From Rhodococcus sp. P-2 (lineage in GTDB: Bacteria > Actinomycetota > Actinomycetes > Mycobacteriales > Mycobacteriaceae): a stretch of 64,000 nt of DNA. A model generated the notes under the pieces. The model worked only from the letters and a program-made list of their open reading frames with translations, was not told the origin of the DNA and searched no databases. Shown one piece after another: positions 1,328 to 24,661 of the stretch (within the stretch, counting starts at the first letter, position 1; each line of letters starts with the position of its first letter). The stretch is from the NCBI RefSeq assembly GCF_016598535.1, contig NZ_CP066779.1, positions 1,488,001-1,552,000 of the forward strand. Direction: 5' to 3'. Made by a program: the position numbers and the translations under genes.

Positions 1328-2167
1328 TCAAGGCGTGAATCGGATCCAGTCGACGGTCAAGGTCGACACATCCGGGGTGGTTGCATCCGTCGGCCCGGGC
1401 CATTCTCCGCCCACCGCAATGTTCATCACGACATAGAACGGCTTGTCGAAAACCCATTTCGAGCCGTCCGGCGCCTCGCTGCGCAAGTACTCGCCCACCA
1501 TTTCACCGTCGATGAAGATCGAGATGGAGTCAGACCTTCTCGTCACCTCGTAAACATGGAAGGTGGTCGAGGCATCACCGCCGAGAAAACCATCCGACGA
1601 CATCTTCCACTTGCCGTCTGTATGTGCAGAAGGATCGGACCACGGACCGTGAATTGCGTTGTGATACTCAGTGGCGTTGTGCACCAACTCCATTACATCG
1701 ATCTCGCCGCTCTCTGGATAGCCCACCGTCGCCAAATTCTCGCCGAGTAACCAGAATGCCGGATGGATTCCCTGCGCCATCGGGAACTTTATTCGGGCAG
1801 AAATCGTGCCCTCTGTGAACGAAAACTTGTCCCTTGTCACGATCCTCGCTGACGTGAATCCCCCCAGGATCCGACGAGCTTCGAGCACGAGGTTACCGTT
1901 TCCATCCAAACGCGCGTTTTCGGCGTTGTCTGTGTAGATCTGCTTCTCCTGATTTCCCCAACCTCCGCCCCCGACATCGAATCCCCACATCGCCGGATCA
2001 GGAGAATCCCCTGCAGCACCATCGAATTCGTCTGTGCCGAAATCGCTCGAGACCATTCGCATCATTGGACTCCGGGGTTGACCGGTGGCGCACGAAGTAG
2101 CCAATAGTAGTGAGGCCATCGAAAGAATCATCCCGGCCCGAACCACGGCACGCGTACTCCCACTCAT
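1328..2167 (-). CDS. GH16-family glycoside hydrolase lipoprotein
   Basis: This 279-residue protein begins with a signal sequence ending in a lipobox (ATS-Cys26), so it is probably lipid-anchored outside the membrane. The core carries the GH16 active-site pattern GEIDVMELVH, with Glu155 the expected nucleophile, Asp157 the assisting acid and Glu160 the acid/base. GH16 enzymes hydrolyse or transglycosylate beta-1,3/1,4-glucans and galactans. Its start overlaps the stop of the GT4 gene by 4 bases (ATGA), which implies translational coupling. In polysaccharide operons such an enzyme commonly trims or releases the secreted polymer; that role is inferred here. The family is clear; the glycan is unknown. 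Confidence 0.86.
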   Translation of the reverse strand: MSGSTRAVVRAGMILSMASLLLATSCATGQPRSPMMRMVSSDFGTDEFDGAAGDSPDPAMWGFDVGGGGWGNQEKQIYTDNAENARLDGNGNLVLEARRILGGFTSARIVTRDKFSFTEGTISARIKFPMAQGIHPAFWLLGENLATVGYPESGEIDVMELVHNATEYHNAIHGPWSDPSAHTDGKWKMSSDGFLGGDASTTFHVYEVTRRSDSISIFIDGEMVGEYLRSEAPDGSKWVFDKPFYVVMNIAVGGEWPGPTDATTPDVSTLTVDWIRFTP

Positions 2168-3321
2168 TTCACAACCCTTCGATAGACGTCAATCACCCGA
2201 TCAGCTCGCGCTGAGACCTCGTGGTCATCCAATACCGACCTGCGTGCACCGGTCACCAACCGGGTGCGAAGCTGGCTGTCATCCAGGAGGGACAGAATTC
2301 TCTCGGCAACGTCTGCGGGATCACCCGGGACGGACAGCAGTCCGTTCTCCCCATCGACGACGTAATCGAGGAAACCGTCCGTCCGACTGGCCACCACCGG
2401 AGTACCAACTGACATCGCTTCGATCGCTATGAGCCCGAAAGGTTCTCGCACGGAGGGAACACACAGGATGTCAACCGACCGCAGAATAGCCGCAACATCG
2501 TTCCGTTGCCCGACAAACCTGACAGCGCCAGGAGCCAATTCCGCGGCTATTCGGCGAAGATTCTCGCCGTAGTGCTCGTTCCCCGGGCTCGACCTGCCAA
2601 CGATGACCAGATGTAAGTCCTTGCCGCGGGAACGAATCTGGGATACTGCCTCGATCAAAGTGTCGATTCCTTTGACAGGGTCGACGCGTCCAATGACTGC
2701 GACCAATGCGGAATCGGGGGAATCAGTGAGCTCAGCTCGCACCGTGGCTGGTCCTGGCGCAAAGACTGCCGCATCGACGCCCTGGGGAACTACCGTCGTC
2801 TTTCCCTGAGCCGATTCCGAAAGCTGCTGCCGTGCAGCATTACTCACTGCGATCGAGGCTGAGGCCCCACGAACGGCCGCACTCAGCAGACTCCGACCTC
2901 GCCCGGGGTCGAGTATGTCGTGAATCTCGAGCACCACAGGTGTTCGCGCCAGCCTGCCAGCCGCAACGCAATCCAGATGTGACAAGAGCGAATTCGAGTG
3001 GACGACATCAGCACGCCGAGCATGTACCAAAAGCTTTGAAACCCACGTCGCAGACCGCGGGATCTGCGACAACAACGTCGCCGAAGTTTGAGAAACGCCA
3101 GAGGAATCACGCAGACCGACACGCGCCCCGTCTGGCATCGGTATGAATTCGAGTCCCATCTCGTTCCACGTCTGTTCGAGCTCACCACCAGAGGGCGCGG
3201 CCATGACAACGTTCACACCTTGCTCACCGAGACGTGGGAGCAACCGAATAACACTGTGCTCAATACCCGTGACATCGCGAGTCAGCGTCGACGCAAGAAT
3301 TCGCAGCCTGCGATCAGCCAT
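2164..3321 (-). CDS. GT4-type glycosyltransferase
   Basis: The product of about 385 residues has the GT-B layout: an N-terminal Rossmann half with an HSNSLLSHLD segment, then a donor-binding half with the IGRVDPVKGIDTLIEA segment and the EPFGLIAIE motif (E-x7-E), the hallmark of retaining family 4 glycosyltransferases. It should transfer a sugar from a nucleotide donor to a lipid-linked glycan on the cytoplasmic side. An in-frame ATG at 3336 is also possible; the ATG at 3321 is preferred because GAAGGTGG lies just upstream at good spacing. The start overlaps the preceding membrane protein gene, and the stop overlaps the GH16 gene (ATGA), so it sits inside a coupled operon. Confidence 0.88.
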   Translation of the reverse strand: MADRRLRILASTLTRDVTGIEHSVIRLLPRLGEQGVNVVMAAPSGGELEQTWNEMGLEFIPMPDGARVGLRDSSGVSQTSATLLSQIPRSATWVSKLLVHARRADVVHSNSLLSHLDCVAAGRLARTPVVLEIHDILDPGRGRSLLSAAVRGASASIAVSNAARQQLSESAQGKTTVVPQGVDAAVFAPGPATVRAELTDSPDSALVAVIGRVDPVKGIDTLIEAVSQIRSRGKDLHLVIVGRSSPGNEHYGENLRRIAAELAPGAVRFVGQRNDVAAILRSVDILCVPSVREPFGLIAIEAMSVGTPVVASRTDGFLDYVVDGENGLLSVPGDPADVAERILSLLDDSQLRTRLVTGARRSVLDDHEVSARADRVIDVYRRVVK

Positions 3322-5089
3322 CGTTACCACCTTCATCCTTAACGGCGACTCGCTCGAAGACTACGAATCCACTACCTTCGAGGAAGACTTTCCACATCGG
3401 GTCCAACCGCATTCGTGCCTCCAGATTCGGCAATGCGTCCCGTGGGGAGAGCCCGAAGTACCAATTGTAGAAAACCATTTGATCGGAAATCGCGAAGTAC
3501 GTTGTCCGGTGGTCAGCGACGAAGTATTCATTGAACTTCTCGTACTCTTCGTCAGTCGCGAAGTCTGCACCGTAGAAAAGAGTCGCGGCCTCCGGTTGCA
3601 CATCGAACTTCGGATCGAGGCCGGCCAACCGCAGATAGGCCTGAGTTGGCCGATCAGGCCACGCCGGGGACGGAACCCTCAGTACGCCATAGGGATCAGC
3701 CGACTCCAACACCTCGGAAGCGCCCTTGACTACTGCGGGTTTCGTCAAGTAGGCGAACCAAGCACCAAAATACGCTTCCGATGAAGACAGCGTGACACCG
3801 ATAAGCAGGATGCTCCCAGCTATTAGCTTTACCCTCGAGGCACGGGACGCGCGGAGCATCGCAGTGACCGGAAATGCAAGCAGTAGGGAACAACCCACCA
3901 GGGAGTAAAGATACACACGAAAGATCGCTTCACCACCATAGCCTTGCCCGGCCAGAATGGCGAGCGGGGCAAACGCGACAATCACGAAAGCGAGTACCGG
4001 CATCTTCTTGCGCCACATAACAATTGCCGTGACTGCGGAGGAAACCAACAGTCCGACAGTCAAGAAACGCATCGTCTTACTTGCAAATACCTGTCCCGCA
4101 GTCGGCGTCAGATTCGCTCCAGCGAGGTTGGACTTCGCGTTCGACGTCACGTCGAAAGAAAATTTCGCGAAGTCACCTGCACTGTCCCAGTTGTAAATGA
4201 GGAAACCAATGGCTATTGCAGCGAACACGAATGTCAACCACCACGGCCGAAGCATTCGGAAGGCCATGAGCGCCACCACGATCAATCCCATCCAATACGG
4301 AGTGAGTTGGTGAGTGACTACTATCGCGCAGAAGACCACGATCATGATGACGACAAGGTTAGGTCGGTCTCGCGAGGATCCAACCAGGGTTAAGAATGCA
4401 AGAACAAGGATCAGTGCCAGCGACTGTGGGGCGAAGTAATCCTGCGCCACCCAATTGAGCACCTCGAAGAGAAACGTGGCGGAAATAGCGGTCGGGACAT
4501 CCAGCCTCCACGCCCTCGCCATGCAGTAGAACAGAATCACCATGAGGAGATGCGCAGCGATCGCGAACCAGTTCGCAACGGCTATGTCCGGCACGCCGGT
4601 AACGCGAGAGAACCACGCCGTTGCCGTGAAGAGGCCAGGCCACCCGTTGTACACATCGACACCTCGCGCCAGGAAATGGCTTCGCTGGATCAGATCCGTG
4701 ACCCCAAGATGCTTGTACGTCCAGGTATACAGCGGCACATCGGACGCCATGAGTGTCGCAGTCCTCTGCACGAGCGCAACAGTTACCACCGCGCCGAACG
4801 CTGCGCGGTTGTTCCTTCGTGACATTGCGACTGCGAAGCCGATCACCGACAAAGTGATTGCACCGGCGAAGAACGGCGACGCCGCGAACAGCAGGCCGAA
4901 ATCCGACGCCTGTGCAGTCGACAGCGAAGGTATAGCGATCCACCAACTCACCAGTGCTGCAACGAGAATCCCCCACGAAACCCAATCGCGCCTCTTGCTG
5001 TCGGATACGACGGCAATCGTCAGCCGGTCAGTCGGAGCATCATATGACTTCGTCGACGACAGGTCGTTTCGCTCCTTCAAACTCGTCAT
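3314..5089 (-). CDS. Polytopic membrane protein, polysaccharide polymerase or GT-C-like
   Basis: This 591-residue protein has about ten to twelve hydrophobic segments between residues 35 and 440, then a soluble C-terminal region of about 140 residues rich in aromatic and charged residues. The architecture fits polyprenyl-phosphosugar-dependent GT-C enzymes or Wzy/O-antigen-ligase-type polymerases, but no diagnostic motif is recognised. It is coupled by a 4-base overlap to the upstream GT2 gene and overlaps the GT4 gene downstream. In an operon with a flippase and three glycosyltransferases the polymerase role would otherwise be vacant, which makes it the natural candidate. Function is inferred from topology and neighbours. 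Confidence 0.6.
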   Translation of the reverse strand: MTSLKERNDLSSTKSYDAPTDRLTIAVVSDSKRRDWVSWGILVAALVSWWIAIPSLSTAQASDFGLLFAASPFFAGAITLSVIGFAVAMSRRNNRAAFGAVVTVALVQRTATLMASDVPLYTWTYKHLGVTDLIQRSHFLARGVDVYNGWPGLFTATAWFSRVTGVPDIAVANWFAIAAHLLMVILFYCMARAWRLDVPTAISATFLFEVLNWVAQDYFAPQSLALILVLAFLTLVGSSRDRPNLVVIMIVVFCAIVVTHQLTPYWMGLIVVALMAFRMLRPWWLTFVFAAIAIGFLIYNWDSAGDFAKFSFDVTSNAKSNLAGANLTPTAGQVFASKTMRFLTVGLLVSSAVTAIVMWRKKMPVLAFVIVAFAPLAILAGQGYGGEAIFRVYLYSLVGCSLLLAFPVTAMLRASRASRVKLIAGSILLIGVTLSSSEAYFGAWFAYLTKPAVVKGASEVLESADPYGVLRVPSPAWPDRPTQAYLRLAGLDPKFDVQPEAATLFYGADFATDEEYEKFNEYFVADHRTTYFAISDQMVFYNWYFGLSPRDALPNLEARMRLDPMWKVFLEGSGFVVFERVAVKDEGGNDG

Positions 5090-6888
5090 AACCGCCGGAA
5101 CCCCGACAGGACAGCCCCAATACGTCGCTTGAGGTTTTCGCGGCCGGAAACGTCCGGGCGACTATCGAGGGTGAGAAGTCGAACTAGAGATGCTCCAATG
5201 GTAGCGAGACTGGGAATCACGAGCTGCGAAAAGGGATAGTACTCTTCGATTGTGGTCATCAGGAATGTCATCAGCACGACGATCGAGATCCCCAGGGCCG
5301 GAACAGCTGCGACCCGAACGTAGCCAGGTTGATCAGGCATGTACGACATAATTGCCGCACCCGGGCCGACCGCAACAAAAACGATCACGGCTACACCGGT
5401 GAGAGCGCCGATCGCGCCCAGGCCGGCACCGATCAGACCACAAACGCCACCGACCAATCCCAGAATTGCCAGTCTGTGCTCGTCGGTCGGCCACCGCGCG
5501 TCAACCGTCGCGATCGCCCGACGAATCGACCTAGCGCCGGGAAATTCGACGGCTATCGAACTGCGCACCGCGCGCGTTCCCTTCGGGAGAAGTGGGCGCC
5601 CCCGTAATCCCCCGATACGCGAGCGCACCAACGCTGCGGGACCTCGCAACAAAGCGCGCCGCTCGATCCAAGGCAATTTGTCAAGATCGGGTGTAAGTCG
5701 AATCTGACCTTCTTCAGGCTGAGAGACGCTCCTGAAGTGCGAAAGTCCCTTGACCATACGCGTCGCCAACATCATCGCTATTCGCGGATCCATAGCGAGT
5801 TTCGTCAACCAGGCGCCAAGCCCGAGGCCGTAGTCGGCCATCTGTTTACTCAATCCCGCTGGATCGATGCGATGACGGTGCCAGACTCGCGCAGCAGGCG
5901 CATAGACCAGCGCACCCCTGCCGAGAATGACCCTGACGAACATGTCGATATCTTCACCGCCACCTGAAGGCGATCCCACCCCTAGCCCCTCGTCGAATCC
6001 GCCGAGCTCGAGCATCACGGATCGTCTTACCGCGAAATTGGCACCCGTCCCGAAATCGCCTACGCGGAAAGGGAACAGAGCGTCGTTCTCCGGCGGATCC
6101 GACAAGCGGTACGTCGTTCGCACAAGATTCTTCGACCAACTCACGCGACGATCGAAAAAGGCTTGAGCAGGAGTCGATACCTCACCTGTCGGCACGAGAC
6201 CTGTGACGATGTGGACGTCGTCCGCGACTGCGAATCCACTGACCAACTCACGGAGCCAGTTCTTGTCAATCACGACATCGTCATCCGTAAATGCCACGAA
6301 CTCTTCAGTGGCCGCAACGAGGCCTATGTTTCGGGCCTTGGACAGGCCACGTTCCGGCGCATCAACGATCCGAACTCCGGCGAAAGCATCCACTATCGGC
6401 GGTGTCAAACCAGACGAAGGATCGTTGTCCACGACGAGCACGTCATAGTTTCGGTAGTCGAGATCGGCGAGTGAGGTCAAAACTTCACGGAGCATGTCCG
6501 GTCGATTCATCGTGCAAATGATCAATGTAACAGGCACTTCGGGGATCGGCGGAGCGGTTACGGGCTCGGAATCCGGCAAGTAGGCCAGGACTTCCTTCGA
6601 TCTGATCATTCCGTTCGCGACTTGAACCTCGACAAAGGCAGATGATCCGTTGAGGCGCGCGACCAGCAGGCGAGCACGTGAGTAGGCTGTTCCCCCGGTC
6701 AATTCGATGACACTCGATGCAAGTAGCTCCCACTCGTCCACCTGACCAATCCAAATGGCCCCTGCCCACAATTCGGTTCCGGCCGTCGGCGTCATCACCG
6801 GATCGAGATTCGTGAGTCCATCACGCCGAACGCCCTGTGCGGCTGGCTCATCGGCGTCCTGATTTCTGACATGTTCTTCAAACCTCAT
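5086..6888 (-). CDS. GT2 glycosyltransferase with C-terminal membrane segments
   Basis: The product is 600 residues. An N-terminal region of about 115 residues has no recognised fold. It is followed by a GT-A family 2 domain with the start strand VTLIICTMNRP, a VVDND segment and the TDDD metal-binding motif. The last 160 residues hold several hydrophobic segments, so the enzyme is probably anchored at the inner face of the membrane. GT2 enzymes add sugars from UDP- or GDP-donors with inversion. It overlaps the flippase gene by 11 bases and the next membrane protein gene by 4, consistent with one transcript. Linkage and donor cannot be told from sequence. Confidence 0.85.
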   Translation of the reverse strand: MRFEEHVRNQDADEPAAQGVRRDGLTNLDPVMTPTAGTELWAGAIWIGQVDEWELLASSVIELTGGTAYSRARLLVARLNGSSAFVEVQVANGMIRSKEVLAYLPDSEPVTAPPIPEVPVTLIICTMNRPDMLREVLTSLADLDYRNYDVLVVDNDPSSGLTPPIVDAFAGVRIVDAPERGLSKARNIGLVAATEEFVAFTDDDVVIDKNWLRELVSGFAVADDVHIVTGLVPTGEVSTPAQAFFDRRVSWSKNLVRTTYRLSDPPENDALFPFRVGDFGTGANFAVRRSVMLELGGFDEGLGVGSPSGGGEDIDMFVRVILGRGALVYAPAARVWHRHRIDPAGLSKQMADYGLGLGAWLTKLAMDPRIAMMLATRMVKGLSHFRSVSQPEEGQIRLTPDLDKLPWIERRALLRGPAALVRSRIGGLRGRPLLPKGTRAVRSSIAVEFPGARSIRRAIATVDARWPTDEHRLAILGLVGGVCGLIGAGLGAIGALTGVAVIVFVAVGPGAAIMSYMPDQPGYVRVAAVPALGISIVVLMTFLMTTIEEYYPFSQLVIPSLATIGASLVRLLTLDSRPDVSGRENLKRRIGAVLSGFRRL

Positions 6889-8152
6889 ACTGAAACACCC
6901 GCCTTCTTATTGCATCTCGACGCCGAGCTATTCCGAAGACTGCGGCGATGCTAGCCGCCGTCTGGGCCACACCGACAGCGACCGCCGCACCCACAGCTCC
7001 CCAGAGAAAGCACGCGAAAGGCAAGACCACCATGAGAAGTCCGGCGAACAGACCGTTGATGACGACCAACGGTCCGATCTCGCGCCTTGCTCGTTGCAAC
7101 GCAGACCACACCACGAACATCGTTCTCATCAACGACCCGATCGCAAGGATGATCACAACAAACTCGGCATTCAAATTCAGATACTCAGGATCGAGTATTC
7201 CGAAGATAATCGGTGCGCCCAGCGAGACCAATACCCCGCCCACAGCGACCAGAACAGAAACCCTCACAAACAAGACCAACGCCATCTTGGAACCATCTTT
7301 GGGGTTCTTCGACGCGTGAACCACAAGGGAAGTCCCCATGGCAGAGCCGACGAATTCGAGAGTCTGTGCAATGCTCATCGAAAGGGAGAAAACTGCGCCC
7401 TGAACGGGACCGGAATAGGCGGTGACGAGAAATGGCATCAGAAGGATCACTCCGACACCCATGGCTTGGGTCGGGACAGCTTGCCTGCACATTCTCACGA
7501 CCTCAGCCGACGCATTGCCGTCAGTCCACAGGCCAAGTGGAGAGGCAGCCGAGCGCCGTTCGACGATACGGCTGATCATCAACCGCATGAACACAACCGA
7601 CACTCCGCCTACTACGACCGTCGACATCACCACCGGTTGCCAATTCGCTAACCACACCAACGCGAGAAGAACACCAATGCGACCAGCGCTGACGATCCCG
7701 TTGATCAAGGGCAACTTCCGGGACTCGTCCAAACTGGTCAAAGTGCTGTTCTGCAGAATGAACATGCCCCAGACGACAACGCCCACAAACACCAGGCAGG
7801 CAACCGGAATCGAGCCCTTCACTTCCGGAATGAACCAAACCGCCGCGACTGCCGCCATGACGCCCACAGGAATCGACAACATGTAGAACACCCGCAGACC
7901 TCGCCGGTGTACGGCGCCGAGGCTTGCACCTGCTGCAGGCATCATCGAATTGAAGACATCGCCGACTCCGGTACCGATGACCATCGCCGGCGCAGTAACG
8001 AGCGCAAGCAGCGCCGTCATGACGCCCAGCTGTGCCGGCGGTAGAACTACAGCCGCAACCGCCCAAAATCCCATGCCCAGCGCGGCATTGATGATCTGGG
8101 ACGACGCCATTGAAGCTGCATCCGCGTAGATACGCGGCCCCTTGTTCGCCAT
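6878..8152 (-). CDS. Polysaccharide flippase-like membrane protein (MATE/MVF superfamily)
   Basis: The protein of about 424 residues is almost entirely hydrophobic, with about twelve predicted membrane spans and short loops, and has the look of Wzx/MurJ-like exporters. Such proteins flip undecaprenyl-linked oligosaccharide to the outer face. The ATG at 8152 is preferred because it shares a base with the stop of the upstream GT2 gene (TGATG), a usual sign of coupled translation; an ATG at 8182 is also open. Its position between two GT2 genes and upstream of a polymerase-like protein supports a Wzx/Wzy-type polysaccharide pathway. Confidence 0.78.
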   Translation of the reverse strand: MANKGPRIYADAASMASSQIINAALGMGFWAVAAVVLPPAQLGVMTALLALVTAPAMVIGTGVGDVFNSMMPAAGASLGAVHRRGLRVFYMLSIPVGVMAAVAAVWFIPEVKGSIPVACLVFVGVVVWGMFILQNSTLTSLDESRKLPLINGIVSAGRIGVLLALVWLANWQPVVMSTVVVGGVSVVFMRLMISRIVERRSAASPLGLWTDGNASAEVVRMCRQAVPTQAMGVGVILLMPFLVTAYSGPVQGAVFSLSMSIAQTLEFVGSAMGTSLVVHASKNPKDGSKMALVLFVRVSVLVAVGGVLVSLGAPIIFGILDPEYLNLNAEFVVIILAIGSLMRTMFVVWSALQRARREIGPLVVINGLFAGLLMVVLPFACFLWGAVGAAVAVGVAQTAASIAAVFGIARRRDAIRRRVFQYEV

Positions 8153-9105
8153 CACGGCCCTACGAAGTGCCGACGCCTGCACACGATGGCGGACAGGGCC
8201 CCCAAACCTGCCGAAACGATTCCGGCAACCACGGCACCCGCCTTCGACAGGGACACCCTGCCCCCCAAGACGTATCGCCGAAGCCCGCCGGTGAGAACAC
8301 TGCGCACGTAGTCACGCTCATCGTCGAGTTCCTCGGAGCCGTTCCGGTCGTCCCGTAGTTCGATCTTTCCCTTCCCTTCGGAATAGCAGCGGGCCAGGAA
8401 GAATCGAAATGTGCTGCGTTCCAAAGGAATATCGTGATCAATAACCGAGTTCGGCACGTAGATCCAATGAAAGTCGTTGCCAAGTTCCGCCATTCGGATA
8501 CACAGGTCGGTATCCTCGGGTTGCGATTGCTCGCCGCTCTTGCCGAACCCGACTCGAAACCCTCCGACCGCACGGAAAGCCGCTGTTCGAACGGCCATGC
8601 TGCCACTCCAGACGTTGCGAACACGGGTGGTCTCGATCGGCATTCCTTGAAACGATTCTCCGACGACCCACCCGAATTCATCCGGAAACCAACCGGGCTT
8701 GGGTGATCTCCATACTGCCCTGTACCGTCCCCCCGTTCCGACGACTCGCTCGTCTGCGAACGGTTTGATCAGCTCCGACAACCAGTTGCTGTCAGCAATC
8801 TCGTCGTCATCAATGAAGGCAGTGTAGGGCGTCGACACGACAGCAACTCCGGCGTTGCGGGCGCCGGACGCACCTCGGGGTCCGTCCTCGTAGGAGATCA
8901 CACAGATGTCTGGCATTGCGCGGCGCAAGGTGTGCGCGAGCGCGCGATTGTGGTCGACCGCAACGATGATCTCGGCAGGCTGCAAGGTCTGCGCTGCAAT
9001 CGAATGAACAGCAGCAACAATCCCCCGCAGTCGCTCCATCGAATAACAAGCCATGACGACGCTTACCGCACCGCTCTTCAAATTGAGGCCATGTCGTGTG
9101 AGCAT
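8152..9105 (-). CDS. GT2 glycosyltransferase, first gene of the envelope operon
   Basis: The product of about 317 residues has a GT-A fold with a VSVVMACYSMERL start, the IDDDE metal-binding motif and an SQPEDTDLCIRM segment typical of the acceptor half (ED-type catalytic base). It belongs to the inverting family 2 enzymes. ATG codons at 9123 and 9105 are both possible; 9105 leaves an N terminus that begins just before the first strand. It is the promoter-proximal gene of a seven-gene coupled operon running left. A possible AAACAWAC-type operator half-palindrome lies about 110 bases upstream, in the gap shared with a divergent gene. Confidence 0.85.
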   Translation of the reverse strand: MLTRHGLNLKSGAVSVVMACYSMERLRGIVAAVHSIAAQTLQPAEIIVAVDHNRALAHTLRRAMPDICVISYEDGPRGASGARNAGVAVVSTPYTAFIDDDEIADSNWLSELIKPFADERVVGTGGRYRAVWRSPKPGWFPDEFGWVVGESFQGMPIETTRVRNVWSGSMAVRTAAFRAVGGFRVGFGKSGEQSQPEDTDLCIRMAELGNDFHWIYVPNSVIDHDIPLERSTFRFFLARCYSEGKGKIELRDDRNGSEELDDERDYVRSVLTGGLRRYVLGGRVSLSKAGAVVAGIVSAGLGALSAIVCRRRHFVGP

Positions 9106-9212
9106 GGTCACGTCTCCAATCATTGCACCGGCCGATTTCCCGTCCCGCCCGCATCCGGACCACGCTCTGCACGCCCGAATCAAATCGTCTAAGCCGCCAC
9201 AAAAGTCCAGAT

Positions 9213-9333: not shown

Positions 9334-10260
9334 GTGACGTTTCTGAAATGGGCATGCTGGATCACCCTCGTCGTGGGCGCAGGCGTACTCGCCCTTCGAT
9401 ACTTGCCGCTACGCAGTCCCGCGTTGCTCTCACTGGTGATCGCCGTGCCGTACCTGCCGCTCGCAATGGTGCCCGCGACGGTGACATTGCTCGCCACTCG
9501 CGAGAGGATTGGGTCGATCATCGGACTGGCCATGATCATGCTCGCGATCGGCACACAGATCGCGATGCCCGTCACCCCGCCTCATGCAGCCGAGGCCATG
9601 CGAATCATGTCGATCAACGTCGCAAAGGGTGCAGCCGACGTAGATGCGGTCATCGACGCAGCAAGACTTCACGAAGTCGACGCAATCGCAGTACAGGAAT
9701 TGACCCCCGCCTTTGCAGTCGCGCTGGAAGCTGCAGGAATGTCCGGGATCTTCCCGTTCAATGTCCTCCGGCCGGACGATGATGCACGAGGAACCGGACT
9801 ATGGAGTCGATTCCCGATCAGCAACCCCCGACAGTTGCATGGATTCGGGTTCGCCTGCGTCGCCGGCACAATCGAATTCGGAGGTGCAAAATACGACCTG
9901 GTCGCGACGCATATCACCGCCCCGATACAAGATCAGGACTCTACGAATTGGATCGCGGATCTCGCACGTGTGGATGCACTGATCGAGACGAATCTCAATC
10001 CACTCGTTGTCGCCGGCGACTTCAACGCAACCGTCGATCACAAGCAATTTCGACGTTTGCTACAGGATGGAACACAGGACGCAGCGAGGCAGGCTGGCCG
10101 GTCATACGTAAACACATTCCCCGCGAACTGGTCATGGCCGCCATTCGCGGCTCTCGACCACATCCTCGTCCCGTCGGAACTGACGGCGACGGCGTTCGAC
10201 ACCGTCGAGATCGCCGGCTCCGACCATCTCGCTATCCTAAGCGCGCTTGTGCAGCGCTGA
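9334..10260 (+). CDS. Membrane-anchored endonuclease/exonuclease/phosphatase (EEP) family protein
   Basis: The 308-residue product starts with three hydrophobic segments (about residues 1-85), followed by an EEP domain with all core motifs in order: SINVAKG (Asn), AVQEL (metal-binding Glu), AGDFNAT (Asp and Asn), LDHI and a terminal SDH. This fold covers DNase I, sphingomyelinase and inositol polyphosphatase-type hydrolases of phosphodiesters and phosphomonoesters. The topology suggests the catalytic domain faces the outside, but that is not certain. The start is GTG. It is divergent from the polysaccharide operon and shares its upstream gap, so a link to envelope metabolism is possible. Substrate unknown. 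Confidence 0.85.
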   Translation: MTFLKWACWITLVVGAGVLALRYLPLRSPALLSLVIAVPYLPLAMVPATVTLLATRERIGSIIGLAMIMLAIGTQIAMPVTPPHAAEAMRIMSINVAKGAADVDAVIDAARLHEVDAIAVQELTPAFAVALEAAGMSGIFPFNVLRPDDDARGTGLWSRFPISNPRQLHGFGFACVAGTIEFGGAKYDLVATHITAPIQDQDSTNWIADLARVDALIETNLNPLVVAGDFNATVDHKQFRRLLQDGTQDAARQAGRSYVNTFPANWSWPPFAALDHILVPSELTATAFDTVEIAGSDHLAILSALVQR

Positions 10261-10296
10261 CGAAACTTGACTTGTCGCTACTATGTGGCAAATTCT

Positions 10297-10393: not shown

Positions 10394-12232
10394 ATGCAGT
10401 TAGCGCGCAGCCGCACCGATGTGGCGAGTTCGACAGACCACATCGGGTCGGCGAACGCTGTTGAAAACACGACTGATCCCGACACGTGCGCACACTCGAC
10501 GTGCGGGGTCACAGATGGCGGAAAATTCACAACTTGGTTTGGCAGCGAGTCCTCGCCGTTATTCGGCACATTGCACGTTCCGACTGGGGGCACAGCACGC
10601 GGAGGGGTCGTGCTGTGCCCTCCGATCGGAAAGGAGCATGTCGATTCCTATCGCGGCCTCATGCTTCTGGCTCAAAAACTCTGCGCGCAGGGCATGTTGG
10701 TCCTTCGGTTCGACTATCTAGGCACCGGCGACTCGTCCGGTGAACAGACCCGAGAAGACGCTGTCGAAATGTGGGAGTCGAGCGTCGTGGAGGCTGCCGA
10801 GTTTCTCCAGTCCTGTGGAGTGCGTGGAATCACCCTGGTCGGGCTGCGAGTAGGCGCGTTGATCGCAACTTCTGCGGCGTCGAGGATACGAGAAATGACG
10901 ACGCTGGTACTTTGGGACCCCGTCATCCGTGGGCGCACGTTCGTTCAGCAACAGAAGGCGTTGAATCTGCTCGCAGCGGGCCCCGATGCCGACGATCCAC
11001 TCATCCCGCTCGTCGGGATGTCGGTGCACCCACTTGCTGCACAACGTCTTTCGGGTATGAATCTCGCTGCGCTCCCCGTCGACCCTTCAATAAACGTCCT
11101 GGTTGCGTCGCGACCAGAGCACGCCGACACTGTACGAGTAAGACAACTCGTAGAATCGCTGTCAGCTGACCATATGAACATCGACGGCCAGGCCCCCTAC
11201 ATCGAGCCAGCCGACTTCGCGGTCCAGATACCCTGGCATACAGTGTCTTCTCTGGCGCAATGGATTAGCGATTCGACGCGCTCGCCACGCACAAGTGTCA
11301 CCGCACATCTTCGTCATTCCACGACGTTGTTGAACTCTCAGTTCGAATTCCCGATCACCGAATGCATCTCCTACGCCGGCACGAACCGTATGCTGACTAT
11401 CCACACAGCGCCGGCCTCGAGTGTCCCCGGCGGCCCGACACTAGTTCTATATGGCACCGCGTCCGAACACCGGATTGGTCCCAGTCGCCTTTGGGTTGAG
11501 TTGGCAAGAGAGTTGGCTGGCTACGGAATCACGACTATCCGATTCGACCGCACTTCGACCGGTGAAACGACCGCGGCGCAGGATCGAGAAATCAGCACCA
11601 TCTACACACCCGAGCAACGCGCCGATGGGGTAGAGGCGGCCAGCAACGCTGGCGTCCGCCCAGAAAACCTGGTTGTCGCCGGTCTGTGCTCCGGATCGTG
11701 GAGCGCCGCAATCGCTGCCGCAGAACTCGGAGCAAATCGAGCAATACTGGTCAATCCCCTTCGGTGGACCACGCGACAATTAGAGTTCACGCGAAGCCAG
11801 TCGCTCGCGCATGCAGAATACTCGCGAGGAACCTTCGCGCTTCGAGCACACAACTGGGCTGTCAGGTTCAAAGACAAGCTTCGTGACCGGTTGCCGTATC
11901 GCGCCTGGCTCGCGTTGGGTCAGATTGGTCTCGTACAGGTACCAGAGGTGCTTCTCGCGCCGTTGGTCGAAGCCGGCGTCGCAACGACAGTGCTTGTATC
12001 ACCAACCGACGAGGAGTGGTTTAACGAGAATCGCGGTCACAGCGGAGTCCGTCGCCTACGGAAAGCATTCGGCACCATCGAGATTCGAAGGCTCGAGCAG
12101 GGCGATCACGCGCTCATCGGACCAAGGATTCGCGCCTCGGTTCACGAGGAAATGAAGAATTCAATCTTGACGACTTTTGGAATCTCTCATTCCCGAGTTC
12201 ACGACTACTCTCAACGCCGCCGGAGGCAATGA
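10394..12232 (+). CDS. Two-domain alpha/beta hydrolase resembling exosortase-associated hydrolases
   Basis: With the ATG at 10394 (GAAGGA six bases upstream) the protein is 612 residues and contains two alpha/beta-hydrolase units. The first (about 45-295) has the VVLCPPIGKEH and RFDYLGTGDS segments, with GLRVG at the nucleophile elbow, residues 150-154, so Arg replaces Ser. The second (about 330-600) has IRFDRTSTGE and GLCSG at 430-434, with Cys432 in the nucleophile place, and a late GDHALIG segment that could supply the His. From memory of the families, GLR-G and GLC-G elbows are typical of the two separate exosortase-A-system hydrolases found with Gram-negative exopolysaccharide clusters; here they appear fused. 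No exosortase gene is seen in this window. Substrate unknown. Confidence 0.75.
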   Translation: MQLARSRTDVASSTDHIGSANAVENTTDPDTCAHSTCGVTDGGKFTTWFGSESSPLFGTLHVPTGGTARGGVVLCPPIGKEHVDSYRGLMLLAQKLCAQGMLVLRFDYLGTGDSSGEQTREDAVEMWESSVVEAAEFLQSCGVRGITLVGLRVGALIATSAASRIREMTTLVLWDPVIRGRTFVQQQKALNLLAAGPDADDPLIPLVGMSVHPLAAQRLSGMNLAALPVDPSINVLVASRPEHADTVRVRQLVESLSADHMNIDGQAPYIEPADFAVQIPWHTVSSLAQWISDSTRSPRTSVTAHLRHSTTLLNSQFEFPITECISYAGTNRMLTIHTAPASSVPGGPTLVLYGTASEHRIGPSRLWVELARELAGYGITTIRFDRTSTGETTAAQDREISTIYTPEQRADGVEAASNAGVRPENLVVAGLCSGSWSAAIAAAELGANRAILVNPLRWTTRQLEFTRSQSLAHAEYSRGTFALRAHNWAVRFKDKLRDRLPYRAWLALGQIGLVQVPEVLLAPLVEAGVATTVLVSPTDEEWFNENRGHSGVRRLRKAFGTIEIRRLEQGDHALIGPRIRASVHEEMKNSILTTFGISHSRVHDYSQRRRRQ

Positions 12233-12477: not shown

Positions 12478-13263
12478 CTACTTTGCGCGCACTGCTTCCC
12501 GCAGCGGAACCCGACGCTCACTCCGGATGGTTCGCAGTACTCGAAATCCGTCACGTACTGCGTTGAGATTGCTCTCGCCATAGATACGGTCGCGCTCGTA
12601 GCTCGGTACTTCGGATATCTTCAATCCCGCGTTGGCTACCCGAACATTGATCAAGGTTTCGATCTCGAAACCGTCGCCCCATTGCGCCTCCGAGGTACCC
12701 GTCTCCGGCAGGTTCATGACAGGTATGTGGCGACGCCAGAACGCGTTGTAGCCGTAGCAAAGGTCGCTGAAAGACGCACGGAACTTGATGTTTACGATTC
12801 CATTCAGTGCTTTGTTTCCAAGTTTGCGGGAAAAGGTGATGTCATCACTCCCTCCGCCTTGCGCAAACCGTGTCCCCTTGGCAAAGTCGGCCCCCCGCAC
12901 CAGCGCATCGACGAACAAAGGGATCTCGGCAGGATCCGTCGAACCGTCAGCGTCGATCATGACGACAATGTCACTCGTTGCCGCCCGAAATCCACATGCG
13001 AGTGCGTTGCCTTTCCCTCGTCTCGTCTGCGTTACGATCGTCGCCTTCGGCCACAACCGCTTGGCAACATCCACCGAATCATCGACCGAATGGCCATCGA
13101 CGAAAACGATCTCATCGATTCCGTCAGGCATCCGCTCTGCGACGTAAGGCAGATTCTTCGCCTCATTCATCGCCGGCACCACCACCGTCACAGAGGGACG
13201 CCGTGAAGCCGGTGCGTGCTCCTGCTCGGATATCTGGATGCGGTCAGTTGTGTCCACGCTCAT
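12478..13263 (-). CDS. GT2 glycosyltransferase, polyprenyl-phosphate mannose/glucose synthase-like
   Basis: The product of about 261 residues has the features of DPM1/DPG-type GT2 enzymes: VTVVVPAMNEAKNL at the first strand, the DADGS metal-binding motif, GTRF, and a C-terminal RIYGESNLNAVRDG segment. It has no C-terminal membrane spans, so it is the short soluble type. Such enzymes make lipid-linked sugar donors used by GT-C enzymes outside the membrane, which would suit the polymerase-like protein of the nearby operon. The ATG at 13263 is preferred over an upstream one because AGAGGA precedes it. A 21-bp operator-like palindrome lies about 200 bases upstream, in the gap after mazG, so it probably has its own promoter. 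Confidence 0.85.
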   Translation of the reverse strand: MSVDTTDRIQISEQEHAPASRRPSVTVVVPAMNEAKNLPYVAERMPDGIDEIVFVDGHSVDDSVDVAKRLWPKATIVTQTRRGKGNALACGFRAATSDIVVMIDADGSTDPAEIPLFVDALVRGADFAKGTRFAQGGGSDDITFSRKLGNKALNGIVNIKFRASFSDLCYGYNAFWRRHIPVMNLPETGTSEAQWGDGFEIETLINVRVANAGLKISEVPSYERDRIYGESNLNAVRDGFRVLRTIRSERRVPLREAVRAK

Positions 13264-13463
13264 TGGTCCTCTGTCTCCCCGGTTGCGTCCCCCGCCAGAT
13301 GTCAAAAACGGTGAACCTTTGGCTTCAAGCAAATAGTTGGCCAACCGCCGAACGCCCCGCCGTCCGGCACTGACTGGCTCACCTCTCGCTCGACTTGTAC
13401 CGAACCAACGGTTGGTACCCCCAACCTCGCAGGTAAAGCGGCAAGGTTTGCTCGTCTGGAGAT

Positions 13464-20836: not shown

Positions 20837-20838
20837 GG

Positions 20839-21825
20839 CTAGACCAACCTCAGATGTCGATGCGAGTCGACGCCGACCGTGTCGGCCACGACTTCCATCG
20901 CCCTCTTCCACGACACCGCCATCTCGTCGAGTTGCTCACGTGGGTCCACGGCGCGGCCCCGGGCGGCGCGCGCCATCTGAAACTGCACGCTCTTGGCCCC
21001 GGACGCCACTTTGCGGAAATCCGCCGCAGCTTCGACCATCCCGGAAAAACCTGAGGTGTCCAGGAACTCACTGGCGTCGGCCGCGAGCTCCGCGCTGGCA
21101 CCGCACTGACGAAGAAGCCCGAAGGACCAGAGGTGAAAGGCATCCATGCCTGCCCCCTGCACCCATTCGAGGTCGGCGATCACCTTGCGCCCCAGCTCGC
21201 GCACGGGATTACCCGCTGCTCGAACCGCGACGTTCCGCCGAGCCACTTCGGCGATGTTTCCGGCGTTGGTGGCATGGACCGGATTCAACCGGATCTGTTC
21301 GACGTAAGGAACAAACGACGGAAGTGAGGAACGATCGAGATCGAAGACACCGGAGAAGTCTTCCCCTCGCAACATGTAATACCCGCTGTTGTGGAAGTAT
21401 TCGAGCTCGCCGGCAACCCTGTCGATCCGATTGGGCACGATCGTGGTCTTGGTGTGCCCCTCGTGATAACTCGTTCCGAGGGTGTCGGGAAGCCAATATC
21501 CGTCCACCTCGACCGTCGACAACATCCCAACCGCGAGATTGTCCTCGACATGTATCAGTGGCGCCCGCCAGACGTTCATCTCGGCGACTTCGATTCCGTA
21601 CAGCGCGTAGATGTCTTCTGCCTTGAGTTTGAGAAACGTCCACTGATTTCCGTCGAAACGCGACGAGAAGGCACAGGCCAACGCCGGGACGGGATCCAAT
21701 CCGAGCGAATGCAACACTTCGATCCACAGATCCGTGTAGCAGTTGGTCTGCGCCCATACCCGGTCGTCCTCGTGCAACGTGTGGGGCCGGTAGCGATCAG
21801 GTGAAATGTCGATGAGCCGGGACAT
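20839..21825 (-). CDS. DUF1839 family protein
   Basis: This 328-residue soluble protein has no catalytic motif I can name. It resembles the DUF1839 family, uncharacterised proteins that I recall occurring beside amino acid:[carrier protein] ligases. Visible conserved-looking blocks are an N-terminal HEDDRVWAQTNCYTDLWIE (with a Cys and a His), FLKLKAEDIYALYGIEV, and AFHLWSFGLLRQCGAS. Its ATG shares one base with the ligase stop (TGATG), so the two are translationally coupled and are likely partners. A Cys-containing N terminus preceding the DLWIE segment could suggest a transferase that accepts the aminoacyl group, but that is speculation. Confidence 0.7.
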   Translation of the reverse strand: MSRLIDISPDRYRPHTLHEDDRVWAQTNCYTDLWIEVLHSLGLDPVPALACAFSSRFDGNQWTFLKLKAEDIYALYGIEVAEMNVWRAPLIHVEDNLAVGMLSTVEVDGYWLPDTLGTSYHEGHTKTTIVPNRIDRVAGELEYFHNSGYYMLRGEDFSGVFDLDRSSLPSFVPYVEQIRLNPVHATNAGNIAEVARRNVAVRAAGNPVRELGRKVIADLEWVQGAGMDAFHLWSFGLLRQCGASAELAADASEFLDTSGFSGMVEAAADFRKVASGAKSVQFQMARAARGRAVDPREQLDEMAVSWKRAMEVVADTVGVDSHRHLRLV

Positions 21826-22781
21826 CAGATGCCCATTCGTTCACGAACGGTAGTCGGCCACGCAGTCACATCGAGACCATGAGTCCGCAACAAGGACAAG
21901 GCAATTCGCTCCATCCCGAAGCCGACGCACGAGCTGTGTGCTACTTCGCCCGCTGCCGTTCGGATGTCGAAGTTGACACCGAAATGGTCGAGATGGTTGT
22001 TCGAGGACACGATTGCCGTGCCCTCGTCGAGATCTCCGTAGAGCCGAACCGTCAGTTCCGTCTTCAGATTCTCTTCACGCTGGTTGGCTGCAAGCATCTT
22101 TCCAGCGCGTCCGAAGAAAGGGTCATTGGCGATCACCGGGGTGGCGTCGAGTTGGAGCTGACCGAGCACCTCGAGTCCCCGCTCGATCCAGTGCTCGCGA
22201 TGCGCTCGTGCTGCGGCGGCATCACCGATAGTCACGAACTCGTGCATCCGAAACGCTTGCATGCGAGCCGGATCGATCGCCGGTTCGTGCCGGAAGCAAA
22301 AACCGTAGATGTCCAGTAGCACCCCACCTTCGGGGAGCACTCCGGTGTATCGCGCATAGGCGGGATGGCACGCAGCGGACACGAGCATGGTCTCGGTCGG
22401 CTCGAGGTGGCGATCCCACGATTGCCCCTCGGCGCGATCGGCGAGCAGTCGTGCGTGATCGCGATTGGAACCGGCGAAGGTATTGATGGCGCCGGTCAGA
22501 TTGGGGAATGAAGCGATGTAGTCGGTGCGCTCGAAACTGCTGCGCGGGAACACCGGCGGAAACCGCAGCCGCGTCGCGGCAGCGCCTGGTCCTGCCGCAA
22601 CCACCACTCGGTCGATACCGTCGACGATGTCCTCGAACACGCCGGAACGCCCGTAGAGTCCCGGTACCTCCGTCTCGACGAGAAGTCCCTCGACGAGCAG
22701 TTCGCGCTGAAATGCGGCCCGCGCCAGATCCAGGTCGGTCTCGCCGGTCACAGTTTCGGTTGTCACAGTCTCGCTTGTCAT
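21825..22781 (-). CDS. Amino acid:[carrier protein] ligase (seryl-tRNA-synthetase-like, class II)
   Basis: The 318-residue protein lacks a tRNA-binding arm but has class II synthetase motifs: FRHEP (motif 2, residues 163-167) and GFGMERIAL (motif 3, 287-295). Cys138 (in AACHPAY), Glu181 (in RMHEFV) and Cys285 (in SSCVGFG) are spaced like the zinc ligands of the Bradyrhizobium amino acid:[carrier protein] ligase, which charges glycine onto the phosphopantetheine arm of a small carrier instead of tRNA. That similarity, and the carrier gene two places upstream, make the assignment strong. The amino acid used here is not determined. It overlaps the dehydrogenase gene by 4 bases and the DUF1839 gene by 1. 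Not a true seryl-tRNA synthetase: too short and without the coiled coil. Confidence 0.86.
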   Translation of the reverse strand: MTSETVTTETVTGETDLDLARAAFQRELLVEGLLVETEVPGLYGRSGVFEDIVDGIDRVVVAAGPGAAATRLRFPPVFPRSSFERTDYIASFPNLTGAINTFAGSNRDHARLLADRAEGQSWDRHLEPTETMLVSAACHPAYARYTGVLPEGGVLLDIYGFCFRHEPAIDPARMQAFRMHEFVTIGDAAAARAHREHWIERGLEVLGQLQLDATPVIANDPFFGRAGKMLAANQREENLKTELTVRLYGDLDEGTAIVSSNNHLDHFGVNFDIRTAAGEVAHSSCVGFGMERIALSLLRTHGLDVTAWPTTVRERMGI

Positions 22782-23968
22782 ATCGTTCCCCGGTATCCGA
22801 TTGCCATGTGCGCTGAACCCGCCATGATTCGATCGTTGTTCACCATCACAGCTGCGCCGTGCGCGTCACGAAGGTGCCGGCCGAGCGAAAACTCGGTGTC
22901 CTCGCGATATCCGGAGATGCCGCAAATCAACATTGTCTGCCCGACGATTTCCACCACCGCAGTGGAGGTTGTGACTTTCAAGTTGTTCATCGCGAGCGAA
23001 AAGCCCACCGCGCCGGTCGCCTCGAAATCGGCGCTACCCTCTTCGGCCTGAACCGCCCGGTCGTACCTGCGTGCAGAAGCATCGACGAGATCGGCGAATT
23101 GTTGTGCGGAAGCAGCAACTTCGGCGAGACGCAGCGCCCCCGGCGAAGTGACTCCCGGCTGCTTACGGGCGGCGGCACGCACGTACTTGCGGGCCTTCTC
23201 GACCGCAGCGTCGGCGATTCCCAGCCACACCGAACTCCAGACGACGTGCGAGACCGGAAGCATCGTGTGGGTGGAGATATCGGAGTACGGAACGTCGGCG
23301 ACCATCTCGGGCGTCGAGGTGGCCCGAAGAATGTAACCGAGACTACAAGTTCCCCTCAGTCCCAGCGTGTTCCATTCGGTGGTGCGTTCGAGCGTCAGGT
23401 CTGGGGTACGACACACCACGAGAACCTGGTCGTTCGGCTGGCTCTCCGGTGTTCGCCGGGCCGTGACGACTATCGCGTCGGAATGCTCACCGTACGAAAT
23501 GACGGGCGCATTCTTGATCAGTAGTAGATGTCCACCCAAATCTTCCACCGCACAGTAACTCCGGCTGACATCTCCGCCGATTCCCAGCTCGGTGGTTGCC
23601 GACGCCAACAGCAGTTGCTTGTCCGCCGTTTCTTCGATAAACCCACGTAGCGCTTCGGTGTTGCCATGCTTGACCAACGAGTAGATCTGTGTCTGATGCA
23701 TGGCAAAAATCATTCCGCTTGCTGCACAGCGCGTTCCGATCACGCGAGCGATCTGCGACACCTCCTGCAGCGAGAGCCCTTCGCCCCCGAGTTCCCTCGG
23801 TACAGCCACGGACAGCAGCCGTTCGCTCCGCATGGCATCGACAGCTTCACGAGGAAACCTTGCCTCGGCATCGACTTCGTCGGCCCACACCGCTGCAACG
23901 TCGTCGGCCAACCGTGCGGCGCGCTCGAGGGCCGTCCCGGTGGAGCACTGCGATTGCGGAGCGTTCAT
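22778..23968 (-). CDS. Acyl-CoA-dehydrogenase-like flavoenzyme, probably acting on an aminoacyl carrier
   Basis: The 396-residue product has the full ACAD fold: helical N domain (VAVPRELGGEGLSLQEVS), middle beta domain with EWNTLGLRGTCS, and C-terminal helical domain ending in REDTEFSLGRHLRDA. ACAD-type enzymes form alpha-beta double bonds using FAD; some in antibiotic clusters act on aminoacyl groups held on carrier proteins, such as prolyl carriers. The gene overlaps the carrier gene and the ligase gene by 4 bases each, so the thioester made by the ligase is its most likely substrate. The catalytic base cannot be placed with certainty from sequence alone. Confidence 0.82.
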   Translation of the reverse strand: MNAPQSQCSTGTALERAARLADDVAAVWADEVDAEARFPREAVDAMRSERLLSVAVPRELGGEGLSLQEVSQIARVIGTRCAASGMIFAMHQTQIYSLVKHGNTEALRGFIEETADKQLLLASATTELGIGGDVSRSYCAVEDLGGHLLLIKNAPVISYGEHSDAIVVTARRTPESQPNDQVLVVCRTPDLTLERTTEWNTLGLRGTCSLGYILRATSTPEMVADVPYSDISTHTMLPVSHVVWSSVWLGIADAAVEKARKYVRAAARKQPGVTSPGALRLAEVAASAQQFADLVDASARRYDRAVQAEEGSADFEATGAVGFSLAMNNLKVTTSTAVVEIVGQTMLICGISGYREDTEFSLGRHLRDAHGAAVMVNNDRIMAGSAHMAIGYRGTI

Positions 23969-24207
23969 GCAGCACCCAACTCCGCCAGCGCACCCTCGAT
24001 CGCCTTGACGCTCGAGAAAGTACTCTTCCGCAACAACTCGTCAGGAAACTCGATGTCGAACGAATCCTCCAGCGCCAACATGACATTCACGCTCGCATGC
24101 GAAGTCAAACCCAACTCGTAAAGATCGGCCTCTCCGTCGATCGTGCTCACGTCGACTGCCAGCCGACCGTGCTCGACGAGCACTTTCCGAATTGCCTGAT
24201 CAATCAT
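23965..24207 (-). CDS. Dedicated acyl/aminoacyl carrier protein
   Basis: An 80-residue, acidic four-helix carrier. The phosphopantetheine attachment site is Ser36 in DLYELGLTSHASV, where LTSHASV replaces the DSL of fatty acid ACPs, as in carriers of amino acid:[carrier protein] ligases. Helix II continues VMLALEDSFDIEFPDE. The start overlaps the phosphopantetheinyl transferase stop and the stop overlaps the dehydrogenase start, giving a tight stoichiometric block. It is expected to carry an aminoacyl thioester through the operon's enzymes. It is unlikely to be the fatty acid synthase ACP because of this sequence and context. Confidence 0.9.
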   Translation of the reverse strand: MIDQAIRKVLVEHGRLAVDVSTIDGEADLYELGLTSHASVNVMLALEDSFDIEFPDELLRKSTFSSVKAIEGALAELGAA

Positions 24208-24661
24208 CAGCGATGTCGTCCTTCTTTTCGATGCGAGTGCCCGAGCGAGTTGCGATCACCATTGCGATGGCAACGTCCGCTTCGTGCGAGATAGATACTT
24301 GAAAGTCGTGCAGATCCTGGGCCCGAGCCAGTTCCGCGGCATTACCGGACAGCGTCACCCCACAACCACCCCAGTCAGCCCGAGTGATTTCGATGGAATT
24401 CCACGGAACGGGAACGTCACCCGGTCGCAGCACCTTCACAACAGCCTCTTTGGCGGCGAAACGTGCAGCCAATCGCTGATCCCGCGCCGGACCGGCGCAC
24501 GTCTGCAATTCGTGTGAAGTGAAGGTTCGATCGAGATACCTCCGCCCGAAGAGGTCGATACTTCGAGTGACATCCACGACGTTCACCACGTCACAGCCGA
24601 TACGCGGGCCGATGTCGAGCATCGGCGGCGGTGCAGTGTCACCCATCTGTTGACTCCCCAT
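24200..24661 (-). CDS. AcpS-type 4'-phosphopantetheinyl transferase, first gene of the operon
   Basis: The product of at most 153 residues shows the AcpS-family motifs: GCDVVNV (Mg-binding Asp), RFAAKEAVVKVL (KEA motif) and SISHE. It would transfer 4'-phosphopantetheine from CoA to a carrier Ser, here most plausibly Ser36 of the carrier encoded immediately downstream (genes overlap by 8 bases). In-frame ATGs at 24646 and 24622 are alternative starts. A dedicated transferase suggests the carrier is poorly served by the housekeeping enzyme. The 270 bases upstream contain the ARE-like operator and then the 3' end of a tetR gene. Confidence 0.85.
   Translation of the reverse strand: MGSQQMGDTAPPPMLDIGPRIGCDVVNVVDVTRSIDLFGRRYLDRTFTSHELQTCAGPARDQRLAARFAAKEAVVKVLRPGDVPVPWNSIEITRADWGGCGVTLSGNAAELARAQDLHDFQVSISHEADVAIAMVIATRSGTRIEKKDDIADD

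Follow-up and report, generated by a model that had tools for sequence, protein, structure and literature searches.

The soil actinomycete Rhodococcus sp. P-2 encodes, at positions 10394–12232 of the stretch analysed here (64,000 nucleotides of contig NZ_CP066779.1, hereafter the window), a fused protein with a hydrolase-2-like and a hydrolase-1-like half, which by a strong association belongs with carrier-protein systems and above all with the amino acid:[carrier protein] ligases. What is new in this work is the proposal that the fused protein is the missing unloading enzyme of this ligase system. Directly supported are its domain make-up, the conservation of a Cys, a His and mostly an Asp, a first elbow without Ser in 35 of 36 proteins and the gene association in two phyla. 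It is very probable that the protein acts on a carrier protein in some way, and for the full mechanism, a Cys acyltransferase that would unload an aminoacyl carrier protein onto a glycan, we consider the chances barely better than even. As far as the text of a 2022 review goes, the biological role of the ligases is unknown, and a Cys enzyme tied both to ligase and carrier protein and to polysaccharide genes is a candidate for the last step and for the destination. This offers a possible answer to the purpose of amino-acid-loading ligases, in the form of a hypothesis that can now be tested.

Architecture and predicted catalytic residues of the fused hydrolase

By translation the protein has 612 residues in two alpha/beta-hydrolase domains, and an in-frame ATG at 10283, which opens the reading frame, would lengthen it by 37 residues. 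The initial annotation had read the elbow motifs GLRVG at residues 150–154 and GLCSG at 430–434, and both are present in the translation. The features of the gene are the following:

10394..12232, + strand: fused two-domain alpha/beta-hydrolase, 612 residues (reading frame opens at 10283)
10511..11290, + strand: domain 1, hydrolase-2-like, Arg at the nucleophile position, without conserved His, predicted non-catalytic
10847..10849, + strand: Arg152 codon, domain 1 elbow
11324..12187, + strand: domain 2, hydrolase-1-like, with the predicted Cys-Asp-His triad
11687..11689, + strand: Cys432 codon, predicted nucleophile
12008..12010, + strand: Asp539 codon, predicted triad acid
12107..12109, + strand: His572 codon, predicted triad base

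The single Pfam match above cut-off is Hydrolase_4, in the first half. An AlphaFold model built from an alignment of 21 rows has a mean predicted local distance difference test score (pLDDT) of 83.5 and a predicted template modelling score (pTM) of 0.87, and the structure prediction that had been suggested as a check thus returns the alpha/beta-hydrolase fold for both halves. Arg152 and Cys432 (Arg113 and Cys393 in alignment numbering) each sit between a strand and a helix in this model. The best solved-structure matches reach Z 24.1 for domain 1 (root-mean-square deviation 2.8, 234 residues aligned) and Z 18.9 for domain 2 (3.4, 221 aligned), and the matches include thioesterases, namely DcsB and the thioesterase for myristoyl-acyl carrier protein (myristoyl-ACP); fold comparison of the two halves does not separate esterase, thioesterase and acyltransferase.

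We have searched 61 genomes (our own plus others from the genus, the family and the order) and 23 of them gave a match to the hydrolase, full-length and in a single frame in 21, our own included, so that this is a real gene. The matches in G052 and G056 span one part only and were left out of the count, and the 20 other full-length proteins are 30–44% identical to that of Rhodococcus sp. P-2.

Residues were counted over 36 fused proteins, 21 in our main alignment (our own and those of 20 genomes), 12 further ones and three from plasmids; these counts are not independent, as the 21 rows include many close relatives. The elbow of domain 2 carries Cys in all of them (21/21, 12/12 and 3/3, respectively), the triad His is likewise present in 36 of 36, and the acid column holds Asp in 34, Glu in one (L201) and, depending on the alignment, Ala in another (L197). 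The elbow of domain 1 is Arg in 28, Gly in seven and Ser in one (L229, GHSIG), which makes the Arg usual rather than universal; it is common in Actinobacteria and found in three of the eight proteobacterial proteins. No conserved His was seen at the matching place of domain 1 across the aligned fused proteins. The replacement of the nucleophile Ser by Arg and Cys, as first annotated, is therefore well founded, and the Ser that both elbows might have had in close homologues turned up once, in the first elbow of L229, and never in domain 2. Set against each other, the conserved Cys, His and Asp of one half and the His-less, non-Ser elbow of the other suggest that domain 2 keeps a Cys-Asp-His triad, with Cys432 as predicted nucleophile, and that domain 1 resembles a dead twin, predicted to be non-catalytic.

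Association with amino acid:[carrier protein] ligases

Six genes at 18254–24661 of the reverse strand, 6–12 kb from the hydrolase, form the ligase operon of the window:

24200..24661, − strand: phosphopantetheinyl transferase (PPTase; TIGR00556, 72.2 bits, cut-off 45.35)
23965..24207, − strand: carrier protein, 80 residues (NF005480, 106.1 bits, cut-off 72)
22778..23968, − strand: acyl-coenzyme A (acyl-CoA) dehydrogenase family protein
21825..22781, − strand: amino acid:[carrier protein] ligase (NF005479, 439 bits, cut-off 357)
20839..21825, − strand: DUF1839 protein (papain-like cysteine fold according to PMC10318531)
18254..20911, − strand: GH2 or beta-mannosidase-like protein

In such systems a PPTase converts the carrier protein to its holo form. 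The ligase family is described as activating an amino acid and transferring it to the phosphopantetheine of the carrier (PMC9437257). The set resembles the Bll0957-type ligase system (PDB 3mey, 4h2w), with ligase and carrier protein above the curated cut-offs, a PPTase present and the ligase aligned to the solved Bll0957 at E 3e-62; it differs in the unloading enzyme proposed here, since our searches found neither such an enzyme nor a product assigned to that system. No paper linking the ligase to the fused hydrolase stood out in a literature search that covered few subscription journals.

The ligase was found in all 21 genomes with a full-length hydrolase, and in 19 of these the two genes share a contig, with starts 1.7–32.4 kb apart. 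Six more of the 61 genomes have a ligase without the hydrolase (G026, which is 74% complete, and five at ≤41% identity). Over a phylum sample of 396 genomes we have found the fused form, over both halves, in seven, a ligase match in nine and both in five. Fisher tests gave 1.3e-9 for the 37 family genomes and 3.3e-8 for the 396 of the phylum, values that ignore relatedness and are only indicative. An independent ARRANGEMENTS comprised 43 named loci, mostly from Rhodococcus and Rhodococcoides, with flanks of at most 8 kb, within which a ligase is present in 24 and a carrier protein in 27; carrier protein, dehydrogenase, ligase and hydrolase are consecutive in 21 of the 43.

Other arrangements were found in more distant hosts, such as hydrolase-ligase-carrier protein in Smaragdicoccus (L093), every partner but the PPTase in Williamsia (L094), ligase, carrier protein, PPTase and hydrolase in G449, carrier protein-dehydrogenase-ligase-hydrolase in G349, and PPTase, carrier protein, ligase and hydrolase within a polysaccharide cluster on a Tsukamurella plasmid (L099). 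Plasmids of Azospirillum, Mycetohabitans and Phyllobacterium carry a carrier protein-dehydrogenase-ligase-DUF1839-GH2 operon which ends in or faces the hydrolase; no PPTase was found beside these three sets. A ligase match is present in 61 of 72,556 plasmid records, and at least 36 of the 57 hydrolase-bearing plasmid records, many of them near-copies from one genus, also have a ligase, 4.2–23.5 kb away. On a Priestia plasmid (L227) PPTase, carrier protein, dehydrogenase and ligase lie beside a transporter, an ATP-grasp protein, a small hydrolase, an alanine permease and an alanine racemase, hinting at alanine as the substrate there.

The six operon genes are clustered, with an mfd match after them, in each of the 17 other genomes of the genus that have the hydrolase, and in these 17 mapped loci the hydrolase lies within the polysaccharide cluster, outside the ligase operon. 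In the window, mazG and a 1341-residue frame taken by eye for mfd, without a family call, lie between the operon and the polysaccharide locus that includes the hydrolase. As this is one conserved region, the linkage within the genus counts as one event, not 17, and it could reflect ligase genes hitchhiking at a single chromosomal site next to a plain carbohydrate esterase of an exopolysaccharide locus. We give this explanation very little credit, given the separate carrier protein and ligase arrangements in L056–L072, L093, L099, L094, G349, G449 and the three Proteobacteria. The adjacency to carrier protein and ligase in 21 named loci, and the thioesterases among the fold matches, would also suit an editing enzyme that hydrolyses wrongly loaded carrier protein in the manner of a type II thioesterase. 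We consider that quite unlikely, with Cys instead of Ser in 36 of 36 proteins, two domains in the chain and 17 same-genus hydrolases placed with the polysaccharide genes rather than in the ligase operon.

A few loci depart from the ligase itself. The hydrolases of G156 (L198) and G434 (L203) come without a match to this ligase and have a carrier protein and a PPTase within 5 kb; in the latter, an adenylation-carrier-thioesterase (A-T-TE) protein directly upstream ends about at the hydrolase start. In L190 (G237, contig 20) the halves are separate. A protein truncated at the contig end joins an adenylation C-terminal region and a carrier domain to the first half, and the genes after it encode the second half, a dehydrogenase, an adenosine monophosphate (AMP)-dependent ligase, a carrier protein and a condensation domain; from its gene content we read L190 as a nonribosomal peptide synthetase (NRPS) version of the hydrolase 2/1 pair. 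A polysaccharide locus of Shinella WSC3-e (L230:19857-26915) combines the fused hydrolase with a carrier protein and with a ligase and a decarboxylase that score just under the cut-offs of TIGR03098 (566.8 bits, cut-off 592.35) and TIGR03099 (413.1 bits, cut-off 478.45), respectively; there is no exosortase among the genes listed in 41 kb. L203, L190 and Shinella suggest that carrier protein and hydrolase are retained with different activating enzymes.

Polysaccharide loci and the proposed aminoacyl transfer

The initial annotation had placed the fused hydrolase beside polysaccharide genes, and the adjacent genes identified in the window agree with this:

1328..2167, − strand: GH16 protein, polysaccharide locus
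2164..3336, − strand: GT4-type glycosyltransferase, polysaccharide locus
5086..6888, − strand: GT2 glycosyltransferase, polysaccharide locus
8152..9183, − strand: GT2 glycosyltransferase, polysaccharide locus
9334..10260, + strand: endonuclease/exonuclease/phosphatase-family protein, just upstream of the hydrolase on the same strand
12478..13344, − strand: GT2 glycosyltransferase, polysaccharide locus

The representative actinobacterial loci contain glycosyltransferases, GH16, GH5 or GH71 proteins, a sugar transferase and Wzz- or Wzy-like proteins, some of them under cut-off. The loci of Rhizobium tumorigenes and Shinella combine the hydrolase with glycosyltransferases and an exopolysaccharide transport or GumC-family protein, and two of these three have an O-antigen ligase, so that the hydrolase is found in exopolysaccharide loci of two phyla. 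Relatives of the 9334–10260 protein, at 37% (L072) and 35% (L086) identity, occur near DUF1839 genes.

The two parts of the region differ in how they vary. The window ligase is 94–97% identical to the ligases of G010, G015, G017 and G025, whereas the hydrolases of these genomes are only 35–38% identical to that of the window; those of G001, G005, G006, G012, G016, G018, G023 and G024 reach 41–44%. Near-identical ligases next to divergent hydrolases suggest that the hydrolase travels with a variable polysaccharide cassette, which seems to be exchanged at a fixed site, the amino acid operon staying in place. Such an exchange would fit an enzyme that needs to recognise a changing sugar.

In the mechanism that we propose, the PPTase would make the carrier protein holo and the ligase would activate an amino acid and load it as a thioester. 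Domain 2 would then accept the aminoacyl group on Cys432, perhaps after modification by the dehydrogenase, with Asp539 and His572 as the other members of the putative triad, and hand it to an acceptor, most likely an exopolysaccharide sugar or a lipid-linked repeat. Domain 1, presumably dead (Arg152, without the conserved His), probably serves as a docking site for the carrier protein or contributes to the shape of the acceptor site. It is in the transfer, the amino acid and the acceptor that we infer beyond the conserved residues and gene neighbourhoods. From context, DUF1839 has been suggested to have a possible part in acyl-CoA-dependent glycan processing at the cell wall (PMC10318531), which fits this glycan-directed scheme.

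Two known systems come close to this proposal. The Dlt pathway of D-alanylation (DltA, DltC, DltB and DltD) is similar in that a carrier-bound amino acid is destined for a cell-surface polymer, and differs in that the transfer relies on a membrane O-acyltransferase and the ligase belongs to a different family. CmaE and SyrC have an alpha/beta-hydrolase fold and a Cys nucleophile and, unlike the fused protein, are single-domain. The likeness, drawn by description and not by sequence, lies in the proposed chemistry, the removal of an aminoacyl group from its thioester on a carrier protein by way of an acyl-enzyme, and in the Cys accompanied by Asp and His (here 36 Cys, 36 His and 34 Asp of 36), and the difference in that they act between NRPS carrier domains. 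CmaE is reported to move aminoacyl groups between carrier domains, and SyrC, according to the title of a reference cited there, does likewise between carrier proteins (PMC8748450).

With CmaE as precedent, the fused protein could use the same carrier-protein substrate and act as a shuttle that delivers the aminoacyl group to a second carrier protein or to a small molecule, any link to polysaccharides being indirect. The NRPS-type neighbours in L190 and L203 would agree with a shuttle, as would the Azospirillum, Mycetohabitans and Phyllobacterium operons, whose surroundings show no listed glycosyltransferase up to a distance of 12 kb. The scanned open reading frames (ORFs) of the window contained no second carrier protein, and the representative actinobacterial loci scanned have glycosyltransferase, sugar-transferase or Wzz/Wzy-like genes; a shuttle appears fairly unlikely to us. 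Another candidate is a fatty acid acyltransferase acting on the exopolysaccharide, in which case the adjacent amino acid system would serve a different purpose. A review of Rhodococcus exopolysaccharides describes ester-linked stearic and palmitic acid and, in the text available, no amino acid substituents (PMC12786566). The linked loading enzymes, nevertheless, are amino acid ligases or adenylation domains, and the window ORFs scanned, from 74 to 25708, include no AMP-dependent fatty acyl ligase, which leaves this alternative very unlikely.

Several observations weigh against a transfer from carrier protein to glycan, among them the review just cited and the three operons without a listed glycosyltransferase. 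The model leaves the roles of GH2, DUF1839 and the dehydrogenase unexplained. Neither carrier protein nor ligase was found near the hydrolases of L100, L104, L197 and L202, within 8 kb of those of L228 and L229, or in the flanks of Mycolicibacterium (L077, L078), Mycobacterium (L081) and Gordonia (L095). Local partners are missing in Caballeronia NK8, where a ligase is on another replicon, in Peteryoungia and in G199, which has two ligases elsewhere. No ligase lies inside the flanks of 19 of the 43 named loci (L077, L078, L081 and L095 included), or, among those listed, on the same record in 21 of the 57 plasmid records. Conversely, the five-gene operons of Rhizobium leguminosarum (L225) and Caballeronia Sq4a (L226) have no hydrolase listed beside them in an incomplete gene table, and four genomes of the phylum sample (G050, G167, G188, G391) match the ligase without having the fused hydrolase, G156 and G434 being the reverse. 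The L225 operon (carrier protein-dehydrogenase-ligase-DUF1839-GH2) is located on a plasmid typed as conjugative.

Relation to the exosortase-A-associated hydrolases

The two elbows had been annotated as typical of the exosortase-A-associated hydrolases. TIGR03101 and TIGR03100 are indeed the best NCBIfam matches of the fused protein, each below its cut-off, and what holds is a relationship of the halves to hydrolases 2 and 1 and not membership in the curated families. The whole protein reaches 103.5 bits to hydrolase 2 (TIGR03101, cut-off 202.75), with the best stretch in the first half, and 77.1 bits to hydrolase 1 (TIGR03100, cut-off 168.45). Taken alone, the first half gives 99.8 bits to hydrolase 2 and 45.3 to hydrolase 1, and the second 36.4 bits to hydrolase 1, with no other family at E 1.

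The one genuine pair available for comparing elbows is that of an actinobacterial draft genome (G090, L189), adjacent genes at 240.9 bits for hydrolase 2 and 292.1 bits for hydrolase 1, both above cut-off. Its elbows, GIRLG and GECNA, have the Arg and the Cys of the fused protein, which agrees with the annotation on a sample of one. The pair adjoins a carrier-protein-like ORF (NF052616, 37.7 bits, cut-off 130) and a gene resembling the XrtA amidotransferase (237.9 bits, cut-off 816.9). The fused protein is thus similar to TIGR03101/TIGR03100 in having related halves in the same order with Arg and Cys elbows, in the case of L189 also beside a carrier-protein-like ORF, and differs by the fusion into a single chain, the scores below cut-off and the lack of an exosortase above cut-off in the genome; the ligase here, as distinct from the exosortase-type TIGR03098, is a tRNA-synthetase relative.

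We have built a quick tree from 60 domains and six outgroups (66 rows in all), the latter being the longest frames of own-genome loci, unchecked as hydrolases. The 23 domain 2 rows cluster with seven hydrolase-1-like rows (Shimodaira–Hasegawa-like approximate likelihood ratio test, SH-aLRT, 93), and the 23 domain 1 rows with the hydrolase 2 of L189 and L190 (support 80). The five remaining hydrolase-2-like rows make up a separate branch on the domain 1 side, whose attachment is unsupported (17), and the deeper branches are weak. L193 and L200, with a domain 1 match and no paired second gene, were left out (elbows Arg and Ser, respectively). In the tandem pairs of other Actinobacteria (L191, L192, L194, L195, L199) the elbow Cys of the second gene is kept and the Asp/His pair is incomplete, the first-gene elbows being Arg in L191, L195 and L199, Ser in L192 and Lys in L194; L190 has Gly in the triad acid column. 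Neither L190 nor these tandem pairs were counted as active.

That no exosortase was in view of the fused gene is true of the whole genome, where none exceeds its cut-off (PF09721 best 20.0, cut-off 25.7; TIGR04178 best 12.5, cut-off 23). One of the eight PEP-CTERM matches is barely above its threshold (21.1 against 20.7 bits), and the genome search suggested in the initial annotation therefore gave little for an exosortase system. The homology to TIGR03101 and TIGR03100, the elbows of L189 and this single marginal match would be what a true fused exosortase-A hydrolase pair serving PEP-CTERM surface proteins predicts, to which the scores below both family cut-offs and the missing exosortase are opposed, and we give it next to no weight. 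The genome searches largely refute it, a divergent exosortase below the cut-offs being still conceivable. The fused form had also been regarded as an oddity, and here a different picture has emerged, that of a family in Actinobacteria and Proteobacteria often accompanied by a carrier protein and an amino-acid-activating enzyme.

A wider, tentative idea, which we hold possible and would not yet expect to be correct, is that hydrolase 2 and hydrolase 1 form a general module, a dead Arg-elbow domain and a Cys acyltransferase domain, that would unload dedicated carrier proteins onto polysaccharides. Its supply would come from amino acid:[carrier protein] ligases in the present system, from NRPS adenylation domains in others and from an acyl ligase and decarboxylase set in exosortase-type loci. 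If true, this would give the ligases a product and explain the exosortase-A hydrolases too, which have the pair architecture in common with the fused protein and for which the idea can be tested.

Elsewhere in the Rhodococcus sp. P-2 genome, at C1 5.54 Mb, the exosortase-like match of 20 bits belongs to a 488-residue ORF (L046:1429-2895), for which a scan against Pfam and NCBIfam gave no family at E 1; a frame that by eye resembles a sugar transferase is located about 17 kb from it.

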